NCBI GenBank assembly: GCA_021818865.1
Contig: JAKASX010000040.1
Location: forward strand, 1-32,044
DNA: 32,044 nt
Reading direction: 5' to 3'
From: Acidobacteriota bacterium
GTDB taxonomy: Bacteria > Acidobacteriota > Terriglobia > Acidiferrales > UBA7541
Positions 24,549-31,395 of the stretch are shown here, piece after piece. Made by a program: the position numbers and the translations under genes. The notes beneath the pieces are model-generated. The model saw only the letters and a program-made list of their open reading frames with translations, made no database searches and was not told where the DNA came from. Positions within the stretch are counted from its first letter, which is position 1. The number at the start of each line of letters is the position of its first letter.

Positions 24549-25092
24549 ATTCGTTCTCGAAAGCTTCGACTGGCGGCGTGGCGGAAGCCGCGGCAAGCGC
24601 GCGCTTTCCCCGGCGCATCGCCACCATTCCGGTGCGCACCATTTCGATGACGCCGAAGGGGCGCAAGACCTCGAGCAGTCCGTCAATTTTGTCTTCCGTG
24701 CCGGTGATTTCGATGGTGAGCGACTCGCGGGCGACGTCGACGACGCGCGCGCGAAATACTTTCACGAGTTCGAGGACATGGGAGCGAACCTCGTGGGGCG
24801 CGGCGACCTTGATCATGGCGAGGTCGCGGAGAATGGAGGGCTGGCGGGTGATATCGTCCACGAGCAGAACGTTGACGAGCTTGTAGAGATTCGCTTCGAT
24901 CCGCCGGGCTTCATCCGGGTCGGCCTCGACGGTGATCGTCATGCGCGAAACTTCCGGTTTTTCCGTGCGGCCGACAGTGAGCGAATCGATATTGAAAGCG
25001 CGGCGGCGGAAAAGCGACGCCACGCGCGTCAGCACGCCGGGCTTGTTTTCGACGTAAACGACGAAGGTATGAAGCGTTGAGCGGTTATTCAT
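24529..25092 (-). CDS. ilvN: Acetolactate synthase small (regulatory) subunit
   Basis: A 187-residue regulatory subunit of acetohydroxyacid synthase, which mediates valine feedback on the catalytic subunit. The N-terminal ACT domain is clear: LHTFVVYVENKPGVLTRVAS and RRRAFNIDSLTVGRTEKPEV (about 7-48). A second region (about 78-155; VDDITRQPSILRDLAMIKVA, RVVDVARESLTIEITGTEDK) is the conserved C-terminal ACT_5-type domain. Length is in the long-form IlvH/IlvN range (about 160-190). The ATG at 25092 lies inside the end of ilvB, so the genes overlap by eight bases and are translationally coupled. It is the last gene of the ilvDCBN block. Confidence 0.95.
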   Translation of the reverse strand: MNNRSTLHTFVVYVENKPGVLTRVASLFRRRAFNIDSLTVGRTEKPEVSRMTITVEADPDEARRIEANLYKLVNVLLVDDITRQPSILRDLAMIKVAAPHEVRSHVLELVKVFRARVVDVARESLTIEITGTEDKIDGLLEVLRPFGVIEMVRTGMVAMRRGKRALAAASATPPVEAFENESAVPQA

Positions 25093-26797
25093 CGGCTGCC
25101 GTCTCCACGAGCGGGCTGGGCCGGCGAATCATCTGGTCGAGCGCCGCTCCCGCCGCGACCATCGGATAAACCGAATCTTCCTGCTCGACGCGGAAATCGA
25201 GTAGCATCGGGCCGTCATGCTCACGCGCGGCGCGCACGGCGGGCGCCACCTGGCGGCGCTCGGTGACGCGCAGGGCGCGAATGCCGTAGGCCTCGGCGAG
25301 GCGAACGAAATCCGGGCTCAAGAGGGGCGTGGCCTGGTAATTGCGTTCGTAGAAAAATTCCTGCCATTGCCGCACCATGCCCAGATAGCCGTTGTTGATG
25401 ATGGCGATGCGGACGTTCAGATTTTCCTGCACCATCGTCGCGAGTTCCGCCATCGTCATCTGGAAACCGCCGTCGCCCGCGACGACCCAGACTTCCGCTT
25501 CGGACCGCGCGGTTTTCGCGCCAATCGCCGCGGGCAGCGCGAAGCCCATGGTGCCGAGACCGCCGGAGGTGATCAGCGAGCGGGGGTGGTCGTGCTTGTA
25601 ATATTGGGCTTCCCACATCTGGTGCTGGCCGACGTCGGTGACGACGACGGTTTCGCTGCCGCGAGTTTCGTGCCAGAGATCGTGCACGACGTGAGCGGCG
25701 TAGAGGTGGCCGTTGTCGGGGAGGGTCTGGATGTCGCGCACGGCGGCGTCGCCCTTCTGGCGATTGATCCAATCGAGCCAATCGCCGCGATCGGCGGGTT
25801 CGACCCTGGGCAACAATTCGCGCAGTACGGCGCTCAAATCGCCGACGAGCGCCACGTCCACTTTGACGTTTTTGTTGATTTCCGCGGGATCGATTTCCAC
25901 GTGGATTTTCCTGGCACCGCGCGCGTAGGAGTCCTTGTCGCCGGTGACGCGATCGTCGAATCGCATGCCGAGCGCGATGAGAAGATCGGCGTTTTGAATC
26001 GCGAGATTCACCCACGCTTCTCCGTGCATGCCCATCATGCCCAAATGCAGCGGGTGCCAGGCAGGCATCGCTCCGAGGCCAAGCAGCGTAAGCGCGACGG
26101 GAATTTGCGCGCGTTCGGCGAGTTCGCGCAACTGGGCGGAAGCGCCGGCGGCGATCACGCCCTGACCGGCGAGAATCACCGGGCGTTTGGCGCTATGGAG
26201 AAGTTCGAGCGCCTGAGCGTATTCGGCTTCCGCGGGCGAAAGATCGGGCCGATAACCGGGCAATTGCGGGCGCGCGGCGTCCCAATCGAATTCGCAGGAG
26301 CCCTGCTGAGCGTCTTTCGTCACGTCGACGAGCACCGGCCCGGGCCGGCCAGAGCGCGCGACGTAAAATGCCTCGCGAATGGTGCGCGCGAGATCGGCAG
26401 TGCGAGTGACGAGCGAATTGTGCTTGGTGATGGGCAGCGTGACGCCGGTAATATCGGTTTCCTGAAACGCGTCCGAGCCGATCAGGCGACCGCCGACCTG
26501 GCCGGTGATGCAGACGATGGGCGAGGAATCCATCATCGCCGTGGCGATGCCGGTGACCATGTTCGTTGCGCCGGGCCCCGACGTGGCGATGGCAACGCCG
26601 ACGCGTCCGCTCGCGCGCGCATAGCCATCGGCCATATGCGTGGCGCCCTGCTCGTGCCGAGCCAAAATGTGGTGGATGCGGCTGTGCTTCAGCGCGTCGT
26701 AAGCGGGCAGAATCGCGCCGCCGGGATAGCCGAAGACGTGCTCGACACCTTCCCGCTCGAGGCATTCCCACAGAATCCGCGCTCCGGTCATCTTCAT
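25085..26797 (-). CDS. ilvB: Acetolactate synthase large (catalytic) subunit
   Basis: A 570-residue ThDP/FAD-dependent acetohydroxyacid synthase that condenses pyruvate with pyruvate or 2-oxobutyrate, the first common step of valine/leucine/isoleucine synthesis. The pyrimidine-binding domain has VFGYPGGAILPAYDAL with the catalytic glutamate E49 in LARHEQGATHMADGYA. The central FAD domain contains ALGMRFDDRVTGD. The ThDP/metal motif, GDGGFQM to INNGYLGMVRQWQEFFY, begins at about residue 440. MRQW-type conservation and RVEQEDSVYPMVAAGA near the end are typical of this subunit. Length is normal. The gene overlaps ilvN by eight bases and is separated from ilvC by 166 bases that hold a palindromic repeat. 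Confidence 0.96.
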   Translation of the reverse strand: MKMTGARILWECLEREGVEHVFGYPGGAILPAYDALKHSRIHHILARHEQGATHMADGYARASGRVGVAIATSGPGATNMVTGIATAMMDSSPIVCITGQVGGRLIGSDAFQETDITGVTLPITKHNSLVTRTADLARTIREAFYVARSGRPGPVLVDVTKDAQQGSCEFDWDAARPQLPGYRPDLSPAEAEYAQALELLHSAKRPVILAGQGVIAAGASAQLRELAERAQIPVALTLLGLGAMPAWHPLHLGMMGMHGEAWVNLAIQNADLLIALGMRFDDRVTGDKDSYARGARKIHVEIDPAEINKNVKVDVALVGDLSAVLRELLPRVEPADRGDWLDWINRQKGDAAVRDIQTLPDNGHLYAAHVVHDLWHETRGSETVVVTDVGQHQMWEAQYYKHDHPRSLITSGGLGTMGFALPAAIGAKTARSEAEVWVVAGDGGFQMTMAELATMVQENLNVRIAIINNGYLGMVRQWQEFFYERNYQATPLLSPDFVRLAEAYGIRALRVTERRQVAPAVRAAREHDGPMLLDFRVEQEDSVYPMVAAGAALDQMIRRPSPLVETAADE

Positions 26798-26874
26798 GGT
26801 CCCTGGCTCCCGCCTGTTCCTTCTGCTGGGTTTGTGGTTTGCGCTCCTTCTTGCGTTGGGCGCGTCGATCGTAT

Positions 26875-26917
26875 GTCGGGATCCTTCGGCCCGGCACGCC
26901 GGGCCTCAGGATGACAG
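26875..26917. repeat. dispersed palindromic repeat, copy 2 (between ilvC and ilvB)
   Basis: GTCGGGATCCTTCGGCCCGG, CACG, then CCGGGCCTCAGGATGACAG. ATCCT pairs with AGGAT and GGCCCGG with CCGGGCC around the loop CACG, with a two-base internal mismatch (TC/TC). The same outer stem and the same CACG loop recur at 31485-31527. It lies inside the ilv operon, in the ilvC-ilvB gap. Confidence 0.75.
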
Positions 26918-26963
26918 TGAATTTTCCCGACCCTTGCTCTTGCCGAAAGCGCGGGCCGACGGC

Positions 26964-27971
26964 TCAGGCCGAAGCCGCTTTCGGCGCGAGCCATTCCATG
27001 CGCGAACGGAGTTCCGCGCCGATTTTTTCGATGGGATGATCGAGGTCTGCGGCGAGCAAAGCGTTGTAGCGCGGCCGGCCGGCGGCGTTTTCGGCGATCC
27101 ATTCGCGAGCGAATTCACCGGACTGGATTTCGGCGAGGATTTTTTGCATGGCGTCGCGCGCGTTGACATCGACGACGCGCGAACCGCGCGACAGATCGCC
27201 GTATTTCGCCGTTTCGCTGACGTAGCGATGCATGCGGGCGAAGCCGCCTTCGTGGATCAGGTCCACGATCAGCTTCAGCTCGTGCAGACATTCGAAATAC
27301 GCCACTTCAGGGCTGTAGCCCGCTTTCACCAGAGTTTCCCAGCCTGCGGCGACGAGTTCCGTGACGCCGCCGCAGAGCACGGCCTGTTCGCCGAACAGAT
27401 CGGTTTCAGTTTCCTCGACAAACGTCGTTTCGAGCGCGGCCGCGCGCGTGCCGCCAATCGCCTGCGCGTAGGCGAGCGTGCGCTCGAACGCTTTGCCCGT
27501 CGCGTCCTGATGGACGGCGATCAGGCAGGGAACGCCGCGGCCCTCGACGTATTGACGCCGCACGAGGCTGCCCGGACCTTTCGGCGCCACCATCGCGACG
27601 TCGACGTTTGCCGCGGGGCGAATCTGGCCGTAGTGGATATTGAATCCGTGAGAGAAGAGCAGCAGGGCGCCGGGCTTGAGACTTGGCGCAATCGCTTCTT
27701 CATATAGGCGCGGCTGAGCCATGTCTGGCGCGAGCATCACGACGACGTCCGCGCCTGCCATCGCCGCGGCCGGCTCGAGCGGCTGCCAGCCGTCGGCAAT
27801 CGCCTGCTTCCAGGAAGGCCCGTTGGGTCGAAGGCCGATGGCGACGCGGCAGCCGGAATCGCGCAGATTCAGCGCCTGGCCGCGGCCCTGGCTGCCGTAC
27901 CCCATCACCACGATGCGCAGGCCGGAGAGCGTTTGCGGATTGGCATCGGCTTCGAAATAGAGTTTCGTCAT
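26964..27971 (-). CDS. ilvC: Ketol-acid reductoisomerase
   Basis: A 335-residue class I KARI that isomerises and reduces acetolactate using NADPH and magnesium. The start is the ATG at 27971, preceded by a GAGGTG ribosome site. Upstream in-frame sequence belongs to the overlap with ilvD and is not used. The Rossmann motif is [20 protein letters not shown] (about 21-40). The substrate-side motif is [14 protein letters not shown] with the conserved histidine. The knotted C-terminal domain has [20 protein letters not shown], with acidic metal ligands, and [19 protein letters not shown] after GYGSQG, in place of the common GHAH or GHAQ, is a mild variation. Length is standard for class I (about 330-340). 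It lies 28 bases after ilvD, so the two are co-transcribed. Confidence 0.95.
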
Positions 27972-27999
27972 GACGATTGCACCTCGCTGAATGGATTCC

Positions 28000-29664
28000 T
28001 CAAAGTTTGGCTGCCGACGGCGGGCGCGTGACCGCGCCTTCGGAAGCGGATGAAACAAGCGCGGCATATTTCGCCATCGCGCCCGTCGGATAGCGCGGCG
28101 GGGGCGGCTGCCAGCGCGCACGACGCGGCGCAAGATCGGCGGCAATATCGAGCCGGCGCGCGGCAATATCGAGCGTGACCCGGTCGCCATCCTCGACAAG
28201 CGCGATCGGGCCGCCCAGGGCGGCTTCGGGAGCCACGTGCGCGATCATCAGGCCGTGCGTGGCGCCGCTGAAGCGGCCGTCGGTGACGAGCGCAACCGTT
28301 TCGCCCAGACCGCGACCGACGAGCGCTGCGGTGACCGCGAGCATTTCGCGCATGCCGGGTCCGCCGCGTGGGCCTTCGTAGCGGATGATCACCACATCGC
28401 CCGATTGAATCGCGCCACTTTGCACCGCTGCGAATGCCTGCTCCTCGCTATCGAAAACGCGCGCGGGTCCGGTGTGGCTGCGGCGCGCGTGGCCGGCGAG
28501 CTTCACGACGCAGCCTTCCGGCGCGAGCGTGCCGCGCAAAATCGCGAGGCCGCCGTGGGATTCGATCGGGGTTGCGAGCGGGCGCACCACCTGTTGCCCC
28601 GACGTTTCACGGGCGGCGCGAGCCTCTTCGTGGATGGTTCGGCCGGAAACCGTGGCGCCATCGTGCAGGCGTCCCGCTTCGAGCAAGCGCGACGCGATGA
28701 GGCGTTCGCCGCCGGCGCGCTCGAGATCGGGCGCGGTGAAACGACCGAAAGGTTTCAAATCGGCGAGCAGAGGCGTTTCGGTGGAGATGCGATCAAAATC
28801 ATCGATCGAAATGGCGACGCCGGCTTCGCGGGCAATCGCGAGCAGATGCAATACGGCGTTAGTCGAGCCGCCCGTGGCGGCAACCCCGGCGAAAGCGTTT
28901 TGGATGCTTTCGCGCGTGATGATCCGGCTTGGGCGAACGTCTTTCGCGAGCAAGGCCATCACCAGAGCTCCAGCGTGGCGAGCGACGTCGTCTTTGCGCG
29001 GGTCGGTGGCGGGGATTTCGTTCGCGCCGGCCGGAGACATGCCGAGAAGCGAGGCGGCGAGAGACATCGTGTTGGCGGTGAACTGGCCGCCGCAGGCGCC
29101 GGCGCCCGGGCAGGCGTGATCCTCAAGGTCGCGCAGTTCCTCGGGCGTCATGCGCCCGGCGGCGCAGGCGCCAACCGCTTCGAAAACGTCTTGAATCGTG
29201 ACGTCGCGCCCTTGAAAACGGCCGGGCTGAATCGAGCCGCCGTAAAGCATGAGCGAGGGAAGATCGAGCCGCGCTAGCGCCATCAGCGTGCCGGGGATGG
29301 TCTTGTCGCAGCCGGAAATCGCCACCACCGCGTCGAAGGAATGCCCGCGAGCCACGAGCTCAATCGAATCCGCGATCACTTCGCGGGAAACGAGCGAGGC
29401 CTTCATGCCTTCGGTGCCCATCGCAATCCCATCGGAAACGGCGATCGTATTGAACTCGATCGGCGTGCCTCCGGCGGCACGAATGCCTTCCTTGACGCGC
29501 TCCGCGAGGCGACGCAGGTGCAGGTTGCACGGCGTGACTTCGGTCCAAGTGTTGGCCACGCCGACGAGCGGGCGGTCGATATCGGCGTCGCGCAGGCCGG
29601 CGGCCTTGAGCATGGCGCGGGCAGGAGCGCGGGAGAGCCCTTTCTTGATTTCGTCGCTGTTCAT
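28000..29664 (-). CDS. ilvD: Dihydroxy-acid dehydratase
   Basis: A 554-residue Fe-S dehydratase for 2,3-dihydroxyisovalerate and dihydroxymethylvalerate, the step after IlvC. The three family cysteines are C46 ([11 protein letters not shown]), C119 ([17 protein letters not shown]) and C191 ([18 protein letters not shown]). The C-terminal swivel domain shows [20 protein letters not shown] and [20 protein letters not shown]. The start ATG at 29664 gives [10 protein letters not shown], the usual N terminus. A more upstream in-frame start at 29691 would add nine unsupported residues. Length is normal (about 555-570). It is the first gene of the minus-strand ilvDCBN block and is divergent from the phenylalanine operon. 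Confidence 0.95.
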
Positions 29665-29727
29665 ATCGCTTTCAGGGCCAGAGCCGCGCACGGGCGATGC
29701 GTGCGCCGATCGGCATCCAACAAAGCG

Positions 29728-29765: not shown

Positions 29766-29823
29766 ATTCTCATTTGTCATAAGAACTATTTAGACACAAA
29801 ATTGCGTTTACGCGCCAGCACCG

Positions 29824-29852
29824 TTGACAGGAACGGCGCGGCCCGGTACATT
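29824..29852 (+). promoter_or_regulatory. sigma70-type promoter of the phenylalanine operon
   Basis: A perfect TTGACA -35 (29824-29829), an exactly 17-base spacer and a TACATT -10 (29847-29852; four of six consensus). Transcription would start near 29859, about 20 bases before the leader ORF, giving a leader of about 245 bases ahead of chorismate mutase. Confidence 0.8.
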
Positions 29853-29878
29853 GCCAGTGGGGTAATTTGGAAAGCTCG

Positions 29879-29989
29879 ATGATCAGCGCAACGACGCAGT
29901 CGTATCGCCGCTACTATAGCTTTAGCGGCCGCTTCCTCTATCGAGGGAGCGGACTGCAGGAAGCTGCGCTCGGATCAGGAGCAGCGTAG
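29879..29989 (+). CDS. Tyr/Phe-rich leader peptide of the phenylalanine operon
   Basis: A 36-codon ORF (ATG 29879, TAG 29987-29989) just after a consensus promoter and ahead of an attenuator. Residues 9-21 read YRRYYSFSGRFLY, with four Tyr codons (9, 12, 13, 21) and two Phe codons (15, 19) in thirteen, an extreme enrichment for a short frame. The remainder is bland (RGSGLQEAALGSGAA). GGAAAG lies four bases before the ATG as a modest ribosome site. By analogy with known Phe and Trp leaders, ribosome stalling at these codons when charged tRNA is scarce would steer the RNA switch downstream. The gene product itself probably has no function. The run of aromatic codons and the fitting RNA structure make a chance ORF unlikely, but no homologue could be checked. 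Confidence 0.8.
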   Translation: MISATTQSYRRYYSFSGRFLYRGSGLQEAALGSGAA

Positions 29990-30056
29990 AAACCCCAGAG
30001 CGAAACCCAAGCTTCCCGGCAGGCCGCGACCTCGAAACGAGGTAGCGGCCTTTTTT
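29929..30056 (+). promoter_or_regulatory. ribosome-dependent attenuator (pause hairpin / antiterminator / terminator)
   Basis: Three exclusive pairings are visible. Pause hairpin 1:2: CCGCTTCCTC (29929-29938) with GAGGGAGCGG (29943-29952), loop TATC, ten pairs including one G-U, overlapping the last Phe and Tyr codons. Antiterminator 2:3: 29942-29946 with 30030-30034 (five pairs) and 29949-29952 with 30024-30027 (four pairs), separated by a two-by-two loop. Terminator 3:4: 30022-30034 with 30038-30050 plus a T tract. A ribosome stalled on the upstream Tyr/Phe codons covers strand 1 and frees strand 2 for the antiterminator. A ribosome running to the stop at 29987 covers strand 2, so the terminator forms. 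Confidence 0.78.
30022..30056 (+). terminator. intrinsic terminator of the attenuator
   Basis: GGCCGC (30022-30027) pairs with GCGGCC (30045-30050), and ACCTCG (30029-30034) with CGAGGT (30038-30043), around an AAA loop. There is one G/A mismatch and then six T residues (30051-30056). It sits 48 bases before the chorismate mutase start, so it must be conditional for the operon to be expressed. Confidence 0.9.
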
Positions 30057-30104
30057 GTTTTCCGGCGGGGAACGCGGGGACAAACGGCAAGGAGCCAAAG
30101 GGCC

Positions 30105-30407
30105 ATGAAACCGATCCGGGAACGGCGAAGGAAGATCGATGGAATCGACGCGCGGCTGGTGGAACTGCTGAACGCGCGGACGCGGCTGGCGATCGAGATC
30201 GCGCATTACAAGCGGACGAGCGGGATGAAGGCGGTGTCGCCGGCGCGGGAGCGGGCGATTCTGCGGCGCGTGCGCGAGGCGAGCGTCGGGCCGCTGGATG
30301 CCGAAGCGATCGCGCGGCTTTTCCGCGCGATTTTGAACGAATCGCGGCGAGCGGCTTCGGCGTCGTCATCGCGAGCAACCACGGCCGCTTGCGGACCTTA
30401 CCGATGA
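30105..30407 (+). CDS. AroQ-class chorismate mutase
   Basis: A 100-residue all-helical chorismate mutase (chorismate to prephenate), the first step of the Phe/Tyr branch. IRERRRKIDGIDARLVELLN (4-23) and RLAIEIAHYKRTSG (27-40) give the arginines and lysine expected to bind chorismate, and VSPARERAILRRVREAS (44-60) is the conserved P-x-R-E motif region. C-terminal residues are low-complexity (ASASSSRATTA). It is a free-standing domain rather than the N-terminal part of a fused PheA. An AAGGAG site precedes the ATG at 30105. The stop overlaps the prephenate dehydratase start (ATGA), so the two are coupled and under the upstream attenuator. Confidence 0.85.
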   Translation: MKPIRERRRKIDGIDARLVELLNARTRLAIEIAHYKRTSGMKAVSPARERAILRRVREASVGPLDAEAIARLFRAILNESRRAASASSSRATTAACGPYR

Positions 30408-31285
30408 ACGCGGCGGCGAGCCGGCCTCGCGTGGCGTTTCAAGGCGAGCGAGGCGCATTCAGCGAGGAAGCGGCGGTGAGGCTGCTGGGCGAAGGGATCG
30501 AGCTGGTGCCGCGGCCGACGTTCGATTCGCTCTTCGCGGCGATTGGCGACGGCGCGGCGGATTTCCTTCTGGCTCCAGTGGAAAACACGCTGGCGGGAAC
30601 GGTGACGGCTTCGCTCGATCTGCTGGTGGAAAGCGGGCTGGAAGCGAGCGGGGAAATCATTCTGCCGATCACGCACTGTTTGATTGGCGCGCCTGCGGCG
30701 ACTTTCGAGATGATTCGAAGCGTTGAATCGCACCCCGTGGCGCTCGCGCAGTGCGAGCGGTTCCTGCGCGCTCATCCCCGGATCGCGGGCCGGGCGGCGC
30801 TCGACACGGCCGGCAGCGTGCGAGACGTTGTCCGATCTGGCGATCCGACCCGCGCGGCGATTGCAGGCCGGCGAGCCGCGGAAATTTGGGGCGGAAAGAT
30901 CCTGCTAGAACATATCGAGGATCATCCGGAAAATTACACGCGATTTCTGCTGCTGTCCCGCTCGCCGCGGCCGAGCGAGAATGCCAATCGGCTTTCGCTC
31001 GTCGTCGAATTGCCGCACGCGCCCGGCGCGCTCTATCGCGCTGTGGGCGTTTTCGCGCGCAGGTCAATCAACTTGCTCAAGATCGAAAGCCGGCCGATCG
31101 CCGGGCGTCCCTGGCAATACCGTTTTTATCTGGATTTGCAGGCTTCGCTGGGCGATGCGGCGACGCGCGAGGCGCTCGGGGAGCTGCGGCAGTCGGCGGA
31201 TCGCGTTCTTACGCTCGGCTGCTACCCGGCGCACGAGGCGGAGAAGCGAGAAGCCGCGACAGGGGCCAAGAATCCGGACGAGTGA
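30404..31285 (+). CDS. pheA: Prephenate dehydratase with ACT domain
   Basis: A 293-residue enzyme converting prephenate to phenylpyruvate. The ATG at 30404 overlaps the chorismate mutase stop. The TTG at 30389 would add five unsupported residues. The catalytic part shows RVAFQGERGAFSEEAAV (9-25), APVENTLAGTV (57-67), ESHPVALAQC (108-117) and the catalytic TRF motif ENYTRFLLLS (T179). The C-terminal ACT domain, ALYRAVGVFARRSINLLKIE to ESRP (228-231), is the phenylalanine-binding site, so end-product inhibition is expected. Length is normal for the monofunctional enzyme (about 280-300). Regulation therefore acts at two levels: attenuation at 29929-30056 and allosteric Phe. Confidence 0.95.
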   Translation: MNAAASRPRVAFQGERGAFSEEAAVRLLGEGIELVPRPTFDSLFAAIGDGAADFLLAPVENTLAGTVTASLDLLVESGLEASGEIILPITHCLIGAPAATFEMIRSVESHPVALAQCERFLRAHPRIAGRAALDTAGSVRDVVRSGDPTRAAIAGRRAAEIWGGKILLEHIEDHPENYTRFLLLSRSPRPSENANRLSLVVELPHAPGALYRAVGVFARRSINLLKIESRPIAGRPWQYRFYLDLQASLGDAATREALGELRQSADRVLTLGCYPAHEAEKREAATGAKNPDE

Positions 31286-31320: not shown

Positions 31321-31395
31321 TGGTAGCGGTACGGGGAATCGAACCCCGGTTTCCAGATTGAGAATCTGGCGTCCTAACCTCTAGACGATACCGCC
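31321..31395 (-). tRNA. tRNA-Glu (anticodon CTC)
   Basis: Reading the minus strand, GGCGGTA...TACCGCT forms the acceptor with a G1-U72 wobble (also found in cyanobacterial and chloroplast tRNA-Glu). The D-arm TCGTCTAGAGGTTAGGAC is typical of tRNA-Glu. The anticodon arm is CCAGA-TTCTCAA-TCTGG with anticodon CTC. The T-arm CGGGG-TTCGATT-CCCCG is intact. Discriminator A and a genomically encoded CCA end the gene at 31321. A TATACT -10-like box lies at 31407-31402, placing transcription start at or next to G1. It converges on the phenylalanine operon. Confidence 0.96.

Follow-up and report, generated by a model that had tools for sequence, protein, structure and literature searches.

A predicted tyrosine- and phenylalanine-codon transcription attenuator ahead of chorismate mutase and prephenate dehydratase genes in Acidobacteriota, with related leaders at other aromatic pathway genes

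The pheL leader peptide of enteric bacteria carries phenylalanine control codons only and lies ahead of a fused chorismate mutase-prephenate dehydratase. In Actinobacteria, one study detected no conserved RNA regulatory structure 5' of phenylalanine or tyrosine operons (PMC1262725), and in Acholeplasma the uORFC-13-1 motif combines a predicted upstream open reading frame (ORF) containing one or more Phe codons with a terminator ahead of aroF, which encodes DAHP synthase (PMC8632094). Terminator scans have predicted attenuators in Acidobacteria, almost none with associated functions (PMC2965389), and the accessible part of a leader-gene survey that includes this phylum does not assign such regulation (PMC4833913). 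Here we analysed a 32,044-nucleotide (nt) stretch of an Acidobacteriota genome (assembly GCA_021818865.1, contig JAKASX010000040.1), referred to as the window. Ahead of its genes for chorismate mutase (CM) and prephenate dehydratase (PDT) lies an element that we take, with a probability of about 90%, to be a transcription attenuator of the classical ribosome-mediated type that senses charged tRNA-Tyr and tRNA-Phe. Its parts are present, conserved and covarying, it is positioned ahead of the cognate biosynthetic genes, and its control codons match its target.

The element comprises a sigma-70-type promoter, a leader peptide ORF, a pause hairpin (regions 1:2), an antiterminator (regions 2:3) and an intrinsic terminator (regions 3:4) that lies between the leader ORF and the first structural gene (Table 1). 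An earlier note on this DNA had claimed the promoter, a 36-codon leader with six Tyr/Phe codons in a thirteen-codon stretch, a ten-pair pause hairpin over the last control codons and a terminator followed by six T residues; all were recovered where it had placed them. The antiterminator that it had built on the 3' arm of the hairpin is present but comprises about 24 pairs, not nine. The control codons are four Tyr and two Phe, the final two overlapped by the pause hairpin, and an in-frame TTG at 29867 offers an alternative start. Among 226 short ORFs on both strands of the window, only this one reaches at least 5 Phe/Tyr per 14 codons, and 3000 dinucleotide shuffles of the leader region never matched its cluster of six. 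The terminator pairs GGCCGC (30022-30027) with GCGGCC (30045-30050) and ACCTC (30029-30033) with GAGGT (30039-30043); it is absent from a mechanical terminator scan of the window, presumably because of its internal mismatch. In the antiterminator, GAGG (29943-29946) pairs with CCTC (30030-30033), GCGG (29949-29952) with CCGC (30024-30027), CTGC (29954-29957) with GCAG (30019-30022), GGAAGCT (29959-29965) with AGCTTCC (30010-30016) and CGCTC (29967-29971) with GAGCG (29998-30002). The 202-nt leader folds at -93.6 kcal/mol (z = -4.9 relative to shuffles). Two promoter-like sites were found against 0.1 expected from shuffles; the second, TTGTCA-17-CAAAAT at 29774-29802, lies 50 nt 5' of the leader promoter, between an ilvD-like gene and pheA.

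We compared the DNA upstream of about 70 PDT genes, a PDT protein being present in 73 of the 89 genomes of the same GTDB family; a separate search of genome contigs with PDT gave three loci only, one of them a near neighbour. This comparison revealed an equivalent leader ahead of CM-PDT in 24 genomes from six genera (g1, g2, g3, g6, g7 and g11). These leaders share a TTGAC promoter (24/24) with a -10-like box at constant spacing, a leader peptide such as MQLYSSYFAFTYRFPFGGERAGETRADNTSN, in which aromatic residues are retained while others change, and a GGCCGC...GCGGCC-TTTTTT terminator. A 25th candidate (L066, genome G013) was dropped, as it had passed the terminator filter by chance and its supposed leader holds no such peptide. 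The earlier note had proposed aromatic-codon conservation in relatives as a check. Over 83 leaders of both sets, these and those found with the covariance model described below, Phe, Tyr and Trp account for 45.7% of the codons of the control window in frame, versus 4.6% and 11.8% in the other two frames.

Covariation of the stems, the other comparative check proposed in the earlier note, is seen in these leaders. RNAalifold, run on an alignment of the 24 CM-PDT leader sequences (A1), recovered the pause hairpin and the terminator and also returned, unprompted, another helix that corresponds to the distal part of the antiterminator. Two-sided compensatory changes occur in 14 of the 27 pairs, with all stems represented, and in 5 of the 10 pairs of the pause hairpin, where 97.4% of the cells are paired. 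All five covariation measures are higher than in any of 500 shuffles and than in every slid control; when the 3' partner is shifted by 1-3 columns, pairing falls from 94% to 42-55%. As judged by eye from the alignment, an equivalent long-range contact is made in genus g11 by CCGG/CCGG and CGARAC/GTYTCG, and in genus g7 by CAG/CTG, CTGG/CCAG and CGGCT/AGCCG. In an alignment-free test, the 24 nt 3' of the pause hairpin (2b) were paired with the 24 nt 5' of the terminator core (3b): the mean energy is -19.8 kcal/mol for a leader's own partners versus -12.9 across genera, and 2 of 720 genus permutations equal the true pairing. The single-lineage shuffle version of this test was not significant for genomes G051 (p 0.56) and G043 (p 0.15). 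Covariation figures from a second alignment (A2), which is model-fitted and includes antisense matches, were kept out of the main evidence. The fold, the covariation and the 2b:3b permutations agree with the earlier claim that the 1:2, 2:3 and 3:4 pairings are mutually exclusive; compensatory changes occur in each of them.

Stalled ribosomes were represented in an energy model with the ribosome edge set 14 nt beyond the first base of the stalled codon. In this model only, a stall frees region 2 for the antiterminator and a ribosome further on does not: when the ribosome halts at Tyr29915 or Phe29921, pairing with upstream RNA takes up 11 of the 14 bases in the 5' arm of the terminator, versus 2 of 14 when it halts at the last Tyr (29939). 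At Phe29921 the antiterminator has an energy of -43.4 (-49.4 with further pairing of the freed arm) against -46.3 for the terminator, so it is level with the latter and can win even at equilibrium. With a ribosome at the stop codon the terminator can form, and RNA carrying no ribosome folds as pause hairpin plus terminator; termination is therefore the default. We propose that transcription from the predicted promoter would yield a leader RNA whose ORF is translated by a ribosome trailing the polymerase. When charged tRNA-Tyr and tRNA-Phe are ample, the ribosome would reach the stop codon, the 1:2 hairpin would hold region 2, and region 3 would be left free to form the terminator hairpin with its U-run, ending transcription ahead of CM and PDT. 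When either tRNA is scarce, the ribosome would stall at Tyr29915 or Phe29921 and mask region 1, region 2 with its 3' flank would form 24 pairs with region 3 and its 5' flank, and the terminator would give way to transcription of CM and PDT.

Several points weigh against this interpretation. Equilibrium folding prefers the terminator for early stalls (Tyr29903-29915), so that co-transcriptional kinetics, that is, kinetic trapping, would be needed at these codons. The ribosome-binding site of the leader ORF is weak, and the element is missing at the CM-PDT gene in most genomes of genus g2. Promoter use, ribosome stalling, termination in vivo and release under starvation are predictions made from the nucleotide sequence.

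Table 1. Positions of the attenuator parts and of the regulated genes in the window.
Feature	Position	Strand	Evidence
Sigma-70-type promoter, TTGACA-17-TACATT (use predicted)	29824..29852	+	10/12 consensus matches
Leader peptide ORF, 36 codons + TAG, MISATTQSYRRYYSFSGRFLYRGSGLQEAALGSGAA	ATG 29879 to TAG 29987-29989	+	Homologous Tyr/Phe leader peptides in 23 other family genomes
Control codons	Tyr 29903, Tyr 29912, Tyr 29915, Phe 29921, Phe 29933, Tyr 29939	+	
Pause / anti-antiterminator hairpin (regions 1:2), CCGCTTCCTC-TATC-GAGGGAGCGG, 10 pairs	29929..29952 (29929-29938 with 29943-29952)	+	Fold and covariation
Antiterminator (regions 2:3), ~24 pairs	29943..30033 (29943-29971 with 29998-30033)	+	Fold, RNAalifold, pairing permutation
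Intrinsic terminator (regions 3:4), AGGCCGCGACCTCGAAACGAGGTAGCGGCCT-TTTTT	30021..30051, six-T run 30051-30056	+	-23.2 kcal/mol; stem and T-run kept in 24 genomes
Ribosome-binding site of CM gene, AAGGAG	30089-30094	+	
Chorismate mutase, AroQ class (CM_2), regulated gene 1	30105..30407	+	Pfam PF01817, E 8e-22
Prephenate dehydratase with ACT domain, regulated gene 2	30404..31285	+	Pfam PF00800, E 9e-53, and PF01842; NCBIfam PRK11898 above cut-off

The genes 3' of the leader are its cognate biosynthetic genes. The earlier note had named a chorismate mutase-prephenate dehydratase as target; both functions are there, but they are encoded by distinct genes with an ATGA overlap, hence by a two-gene operon with no fused protein. 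This arrangement bears on the possibility that the leader senses phenylalanine alone, like enteric pheA, with its Tyr codons neutral. PDT yields the precursor of phenylalanine only, and the stall at Phe29921 is the most favourable to the antiterminator. However, four of the six control codons of the window are Tyr, the 31 CM-PDT leaders average 2.7 Tyr and 3.6 Phe per 14 codons, and a ribosome stalled at Tyr29915 likewise commits 11 of the 14 arm bases to antiterminator pairing. A family search also found a single CM_2 match in this 95%-complete genome, which is the gene in the window, and CM is required for both amino acids; prephenate dehydrogenase is encoded on another contig, just past trpB. 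We consider phenylalanine-only sensing unlikely. Sensing of both Tyr and Phe is explained by the sole CM_2 found in the genome feeding both amino acids, and an operon that provides prephenate for the two fits a two-amino-acid sensor.

The leader peptide could also act by itself, through nascent-chain arrest or in trans, instead of reporting tRNA supply codon by codon. Its FAFTYRF motif is conserved well outside the family, including Ala, Thr and Arg. The conserved codons fall on RNA stems, however: TACCGCTTC holds region 1, and the TTCGCC of genus g11 can pair with a downstream GGCGAA. This coincidence means that RNA pairing can explain the conservation of the peptide, and beyond the FAFTYRF part residues change yet stay aromatic; a peptide effect is accordingly improbable, more so than phenylalanine-only sensing. 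In the g11 leaders (L016, L022, L029 and others) the TTCGCC belongs to the FAF codons and the GGCGAA follows the pause hairpin, which this pairing would lengthen; it could account for the strong conservation of FAFTYRF.

The attenuator interpretation of the earlier note is supported, and beyond it the antiterminator is larger, the element is not limited to pheA, and control-codon content tracks the pathway branch. We searched for further members with a covariance model (R1) trained on the 24 CM-PDT leaders only. R1 matched in 47 of 89 family genomes and 121 of 399 class genomes (E <= 0.05) and in 41 of 396 phylum genomes (E <= 0.01), many of the matches being distant from a PDT gene. The window scores E 5e-23 by construction, as a training member, and holds together an R1 match, an aromatic leader ORF and an aromatic gene shortly downstream; among loci that were not used for training, one in G165, from another family of the same order, scores 3.9e-25 and one in G467, from beyond the class, 7.4e-13. 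We examined 59 further loci, of which 57 have downstream DNA and two (L117, L118) lie at contig ends. An aromatic-pathway gene lies downstream at 52 of the 57, a cysteine synthase at 2 and neither at 3; mainly the best-scoring loci were checked, so this rate does not hold for weak matches. The aromatic targets are CM-PDT, CM alone, CM followed by DAHP synthase, DAHP synthase, trpB and shikimate kinase (aroK), representative proteins having been confirmed by Pfam and NCBIfam, and the first gene mostly starts no more than about 250 nt from the terminator (nearly all such loci). Examples are the DAHP synthase leaders of genus g12 (RYYYWFAFTYRFPW), the trpB leaders of family f11 (SSRFWFTFRYWHTVAASAE), the shikimate kinase leaders (FQPGFCFTYRYWWPVAAQ) and, outside the class, the CM-PDT leaders of family f34 (HTLFYFAFTYRFFF, E 7e-13). 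In the genome of the window itself, no such leader was seen upstream of DAHP synthase and trpB, nor any W-rich leader with terminator on the contig that carries both trpB and prephenate dehydrogenase (G000:C22:23853-26337; L170, L172).

Control codons differ between these targets. Trp codons are present in 31 of 35 leaders of DAHP synthase, trpB and shikimate kinase versus 10 of 41 leaders of the prephenate branch (Fisher 1.3e-8), related genomes being included in this comparison; counted by genus, the figures are 11/14 versus 2/13 (p = 0.0018). Trp codons are scarce in the training set of R1 and were therefore not selected for by the model, and their pattern provides a largely independent indication that the codons serve to sense amino acids. 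The non-PDT leaders of g12 and g13 score E 1e-16 to 1e-20 with R1 and have an FAFTYRF-like motif and the terminator core in common, which argues for descent from one module. For the trpB and aroK leaders of f11, relocation of this module is plausible; it is not proven, because terminator composition and aromatic codons could inflate the R1 score. We lean slightly towards the view that one homologous module serves as a portable aromatic regulator, which has moved among CM-PDT, CM-DAHP synthase, DAHP synthase, trpB and aroK operons and had its control codons re-tuned on the way, to Phe/Tyr in the prephenate branch and to Phe/Tyr/Trp at common-pathway and Trp genes; the result would be a regulon run by leader peptides without a dedicated regulatory protein. 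On the other side, genus g3 is off the pattern, with a Trp codon in 4 of 5 prephenate-branch leaders, and there are false positives among the weaker R1 matches.

Other R1 matches stand apart from these targets. Three (L148, L149, L150) have no aromatic gene and were classed as false or unresolved; L150 (G421:C23:337675-337811) has a leader-like ORF, MTKSLHRYRYYYGPLS, and a terminator. L152 (G511:C1:1725234-1725366), outside the class, has the leader ...GRQYFYFYYFYLK ahead of DAHP synthase, a similar solution, possibly of independent origin, in a distant lineage. The two cysteine synthase loci belong to family f34 (L151, G467:C6:24336-24479; L146, G737:C10:230919-231055), and their cysteine-rich leader peptides, MNYAYHCCCCTYCACCPG... 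and ...KLYYCHYWCACTF..., suggest that Acidobacteriota also have a transcription attenuator with Cys control codons and an intrinsic terminator. In family f11, Phe/Tyr/Trp leaders lie ahead of shikimate kinase (L164, G214:C28; L129, L130, L137, L156, L161-L163), and the next gene reads as an AI-2E-type (PerM-like) transporter.

The shift of codon identity with the target gene bears on a simpler possibility, in which pheA is preceded by a plain constitutive terminator or a small RNA (sRNA) gene, with an incidental Tyr/Phe ORF. The terminator is indeed the most conserved part (5 of 7 main-stem pairs invariant), GCCGC..GCGGC terminators recur at loci of this phylum, and the nearest match in a permissive Rfam scan is a Burkholderia sRNA, BcKCsr2 (RF02883; 19.9 bits versus a cut-off of 40). 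An incidental ORF would however account neither for the in-frame excess of aromatic codons and its absence from the shuffles, nor for covariation in the stems that compete with the terminator, and we give this alternative very little weight. BcKCsr2 spans 29900-30056 end to end, but the agreement is mainly in the terminator stem and identity was rejected, the score being far below the cut-off; the other permissive Rfam matches are chance. Control of the terminator by a T-box, riboswitch or protein-binding attenuator, with the ORF secondary, is just as hard to credit: T-boxes serve amino-acid operons in other phyla and the RNA is long and conserved with competing folds, but the T-box model matched neither the window (at cut-off or permissively) nor 13 related loci, and in the alignment conservation follows codons and stems, with no conserved unpaired ligand- or tRNA-binding core seen.

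Around the operon, a tRNA-Glu (CTC) gene lies on the minus strand at 31321-31395, directly 3' of the PDT gene, and thus marks the end of the operon. On the other side, ilvD-, ilvC- and ilvB-like genes, identified by reading, occupy 25085-29691 on the minus strand, divergent from the pheA leader. The window is part of an acidobacterial metagenome-assembled genome (MAG), whose closest named relative is "Acidobacteria bacterium YF1.bin127" (87% identity in PDT).

Acidobacteriota are among the most abundant soil phyla, and attenuator functions there are almost wholly unassigned (PMC2965389). One family now has a signal, a structure and targets, and R1 could help in annotating the regulation of aromatic pathways in uncultured genomes. 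The leaders also form a natural experiment, in which one type of switch carries differing sets of control codons ahead of differing genes; this allows a direct test of the theory that relates control-codon choice to sensitivity to one, two or three amino acids. The mechanism is ordinary, and the distribution of the RNA family is more interesting than the single locus suggests.

Comparison with described systems places the element as a well-known mechanism in an RNA family that is undescribed and absent from Rfam. The earlier note had thought it possibly new to this lineage. In agreement, Rfam at cut-off returned only a tRNA in the window and no family in the 13 related loci, the Phe_leader model had no match at cut-off nor at E up to 10, and the literature on leader peptides and attenuation in Acidobacteria yielded no description, an earlier mention being possible in the surveys of Lopatovskaya 2010 and Vitreschak 2004. 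The enteric pheA leader (pheL; Rfam Phe_leader) and the pheST leader (pheM) of gamma-proteobacteria have the same leader ORF, pause hairpin, antiterminator and terminator, and pheA the same prephenate dehydratase target; compared with pheL, the present leader mixes Tyr and Phe codons, precedes separate genes, belongs to another phylum and has no detectable similarity to the model. The trp attenuators of proteobacteria and Actinobacteria (PMC1262725) follow the same three-hairpin logic and stop-codon placement, but with Trp codons only. The uORFC-13-1 motif differs in phylum and structure, with at least one Phe codon where a Phe/Tyr/Trp cluster is found here. Finally, like the unassigned attenuators predicted in the phylum (PMC2965389), these elements are premature terminators in 5' leaders, but here the signal, the structure and the targets are assigned.
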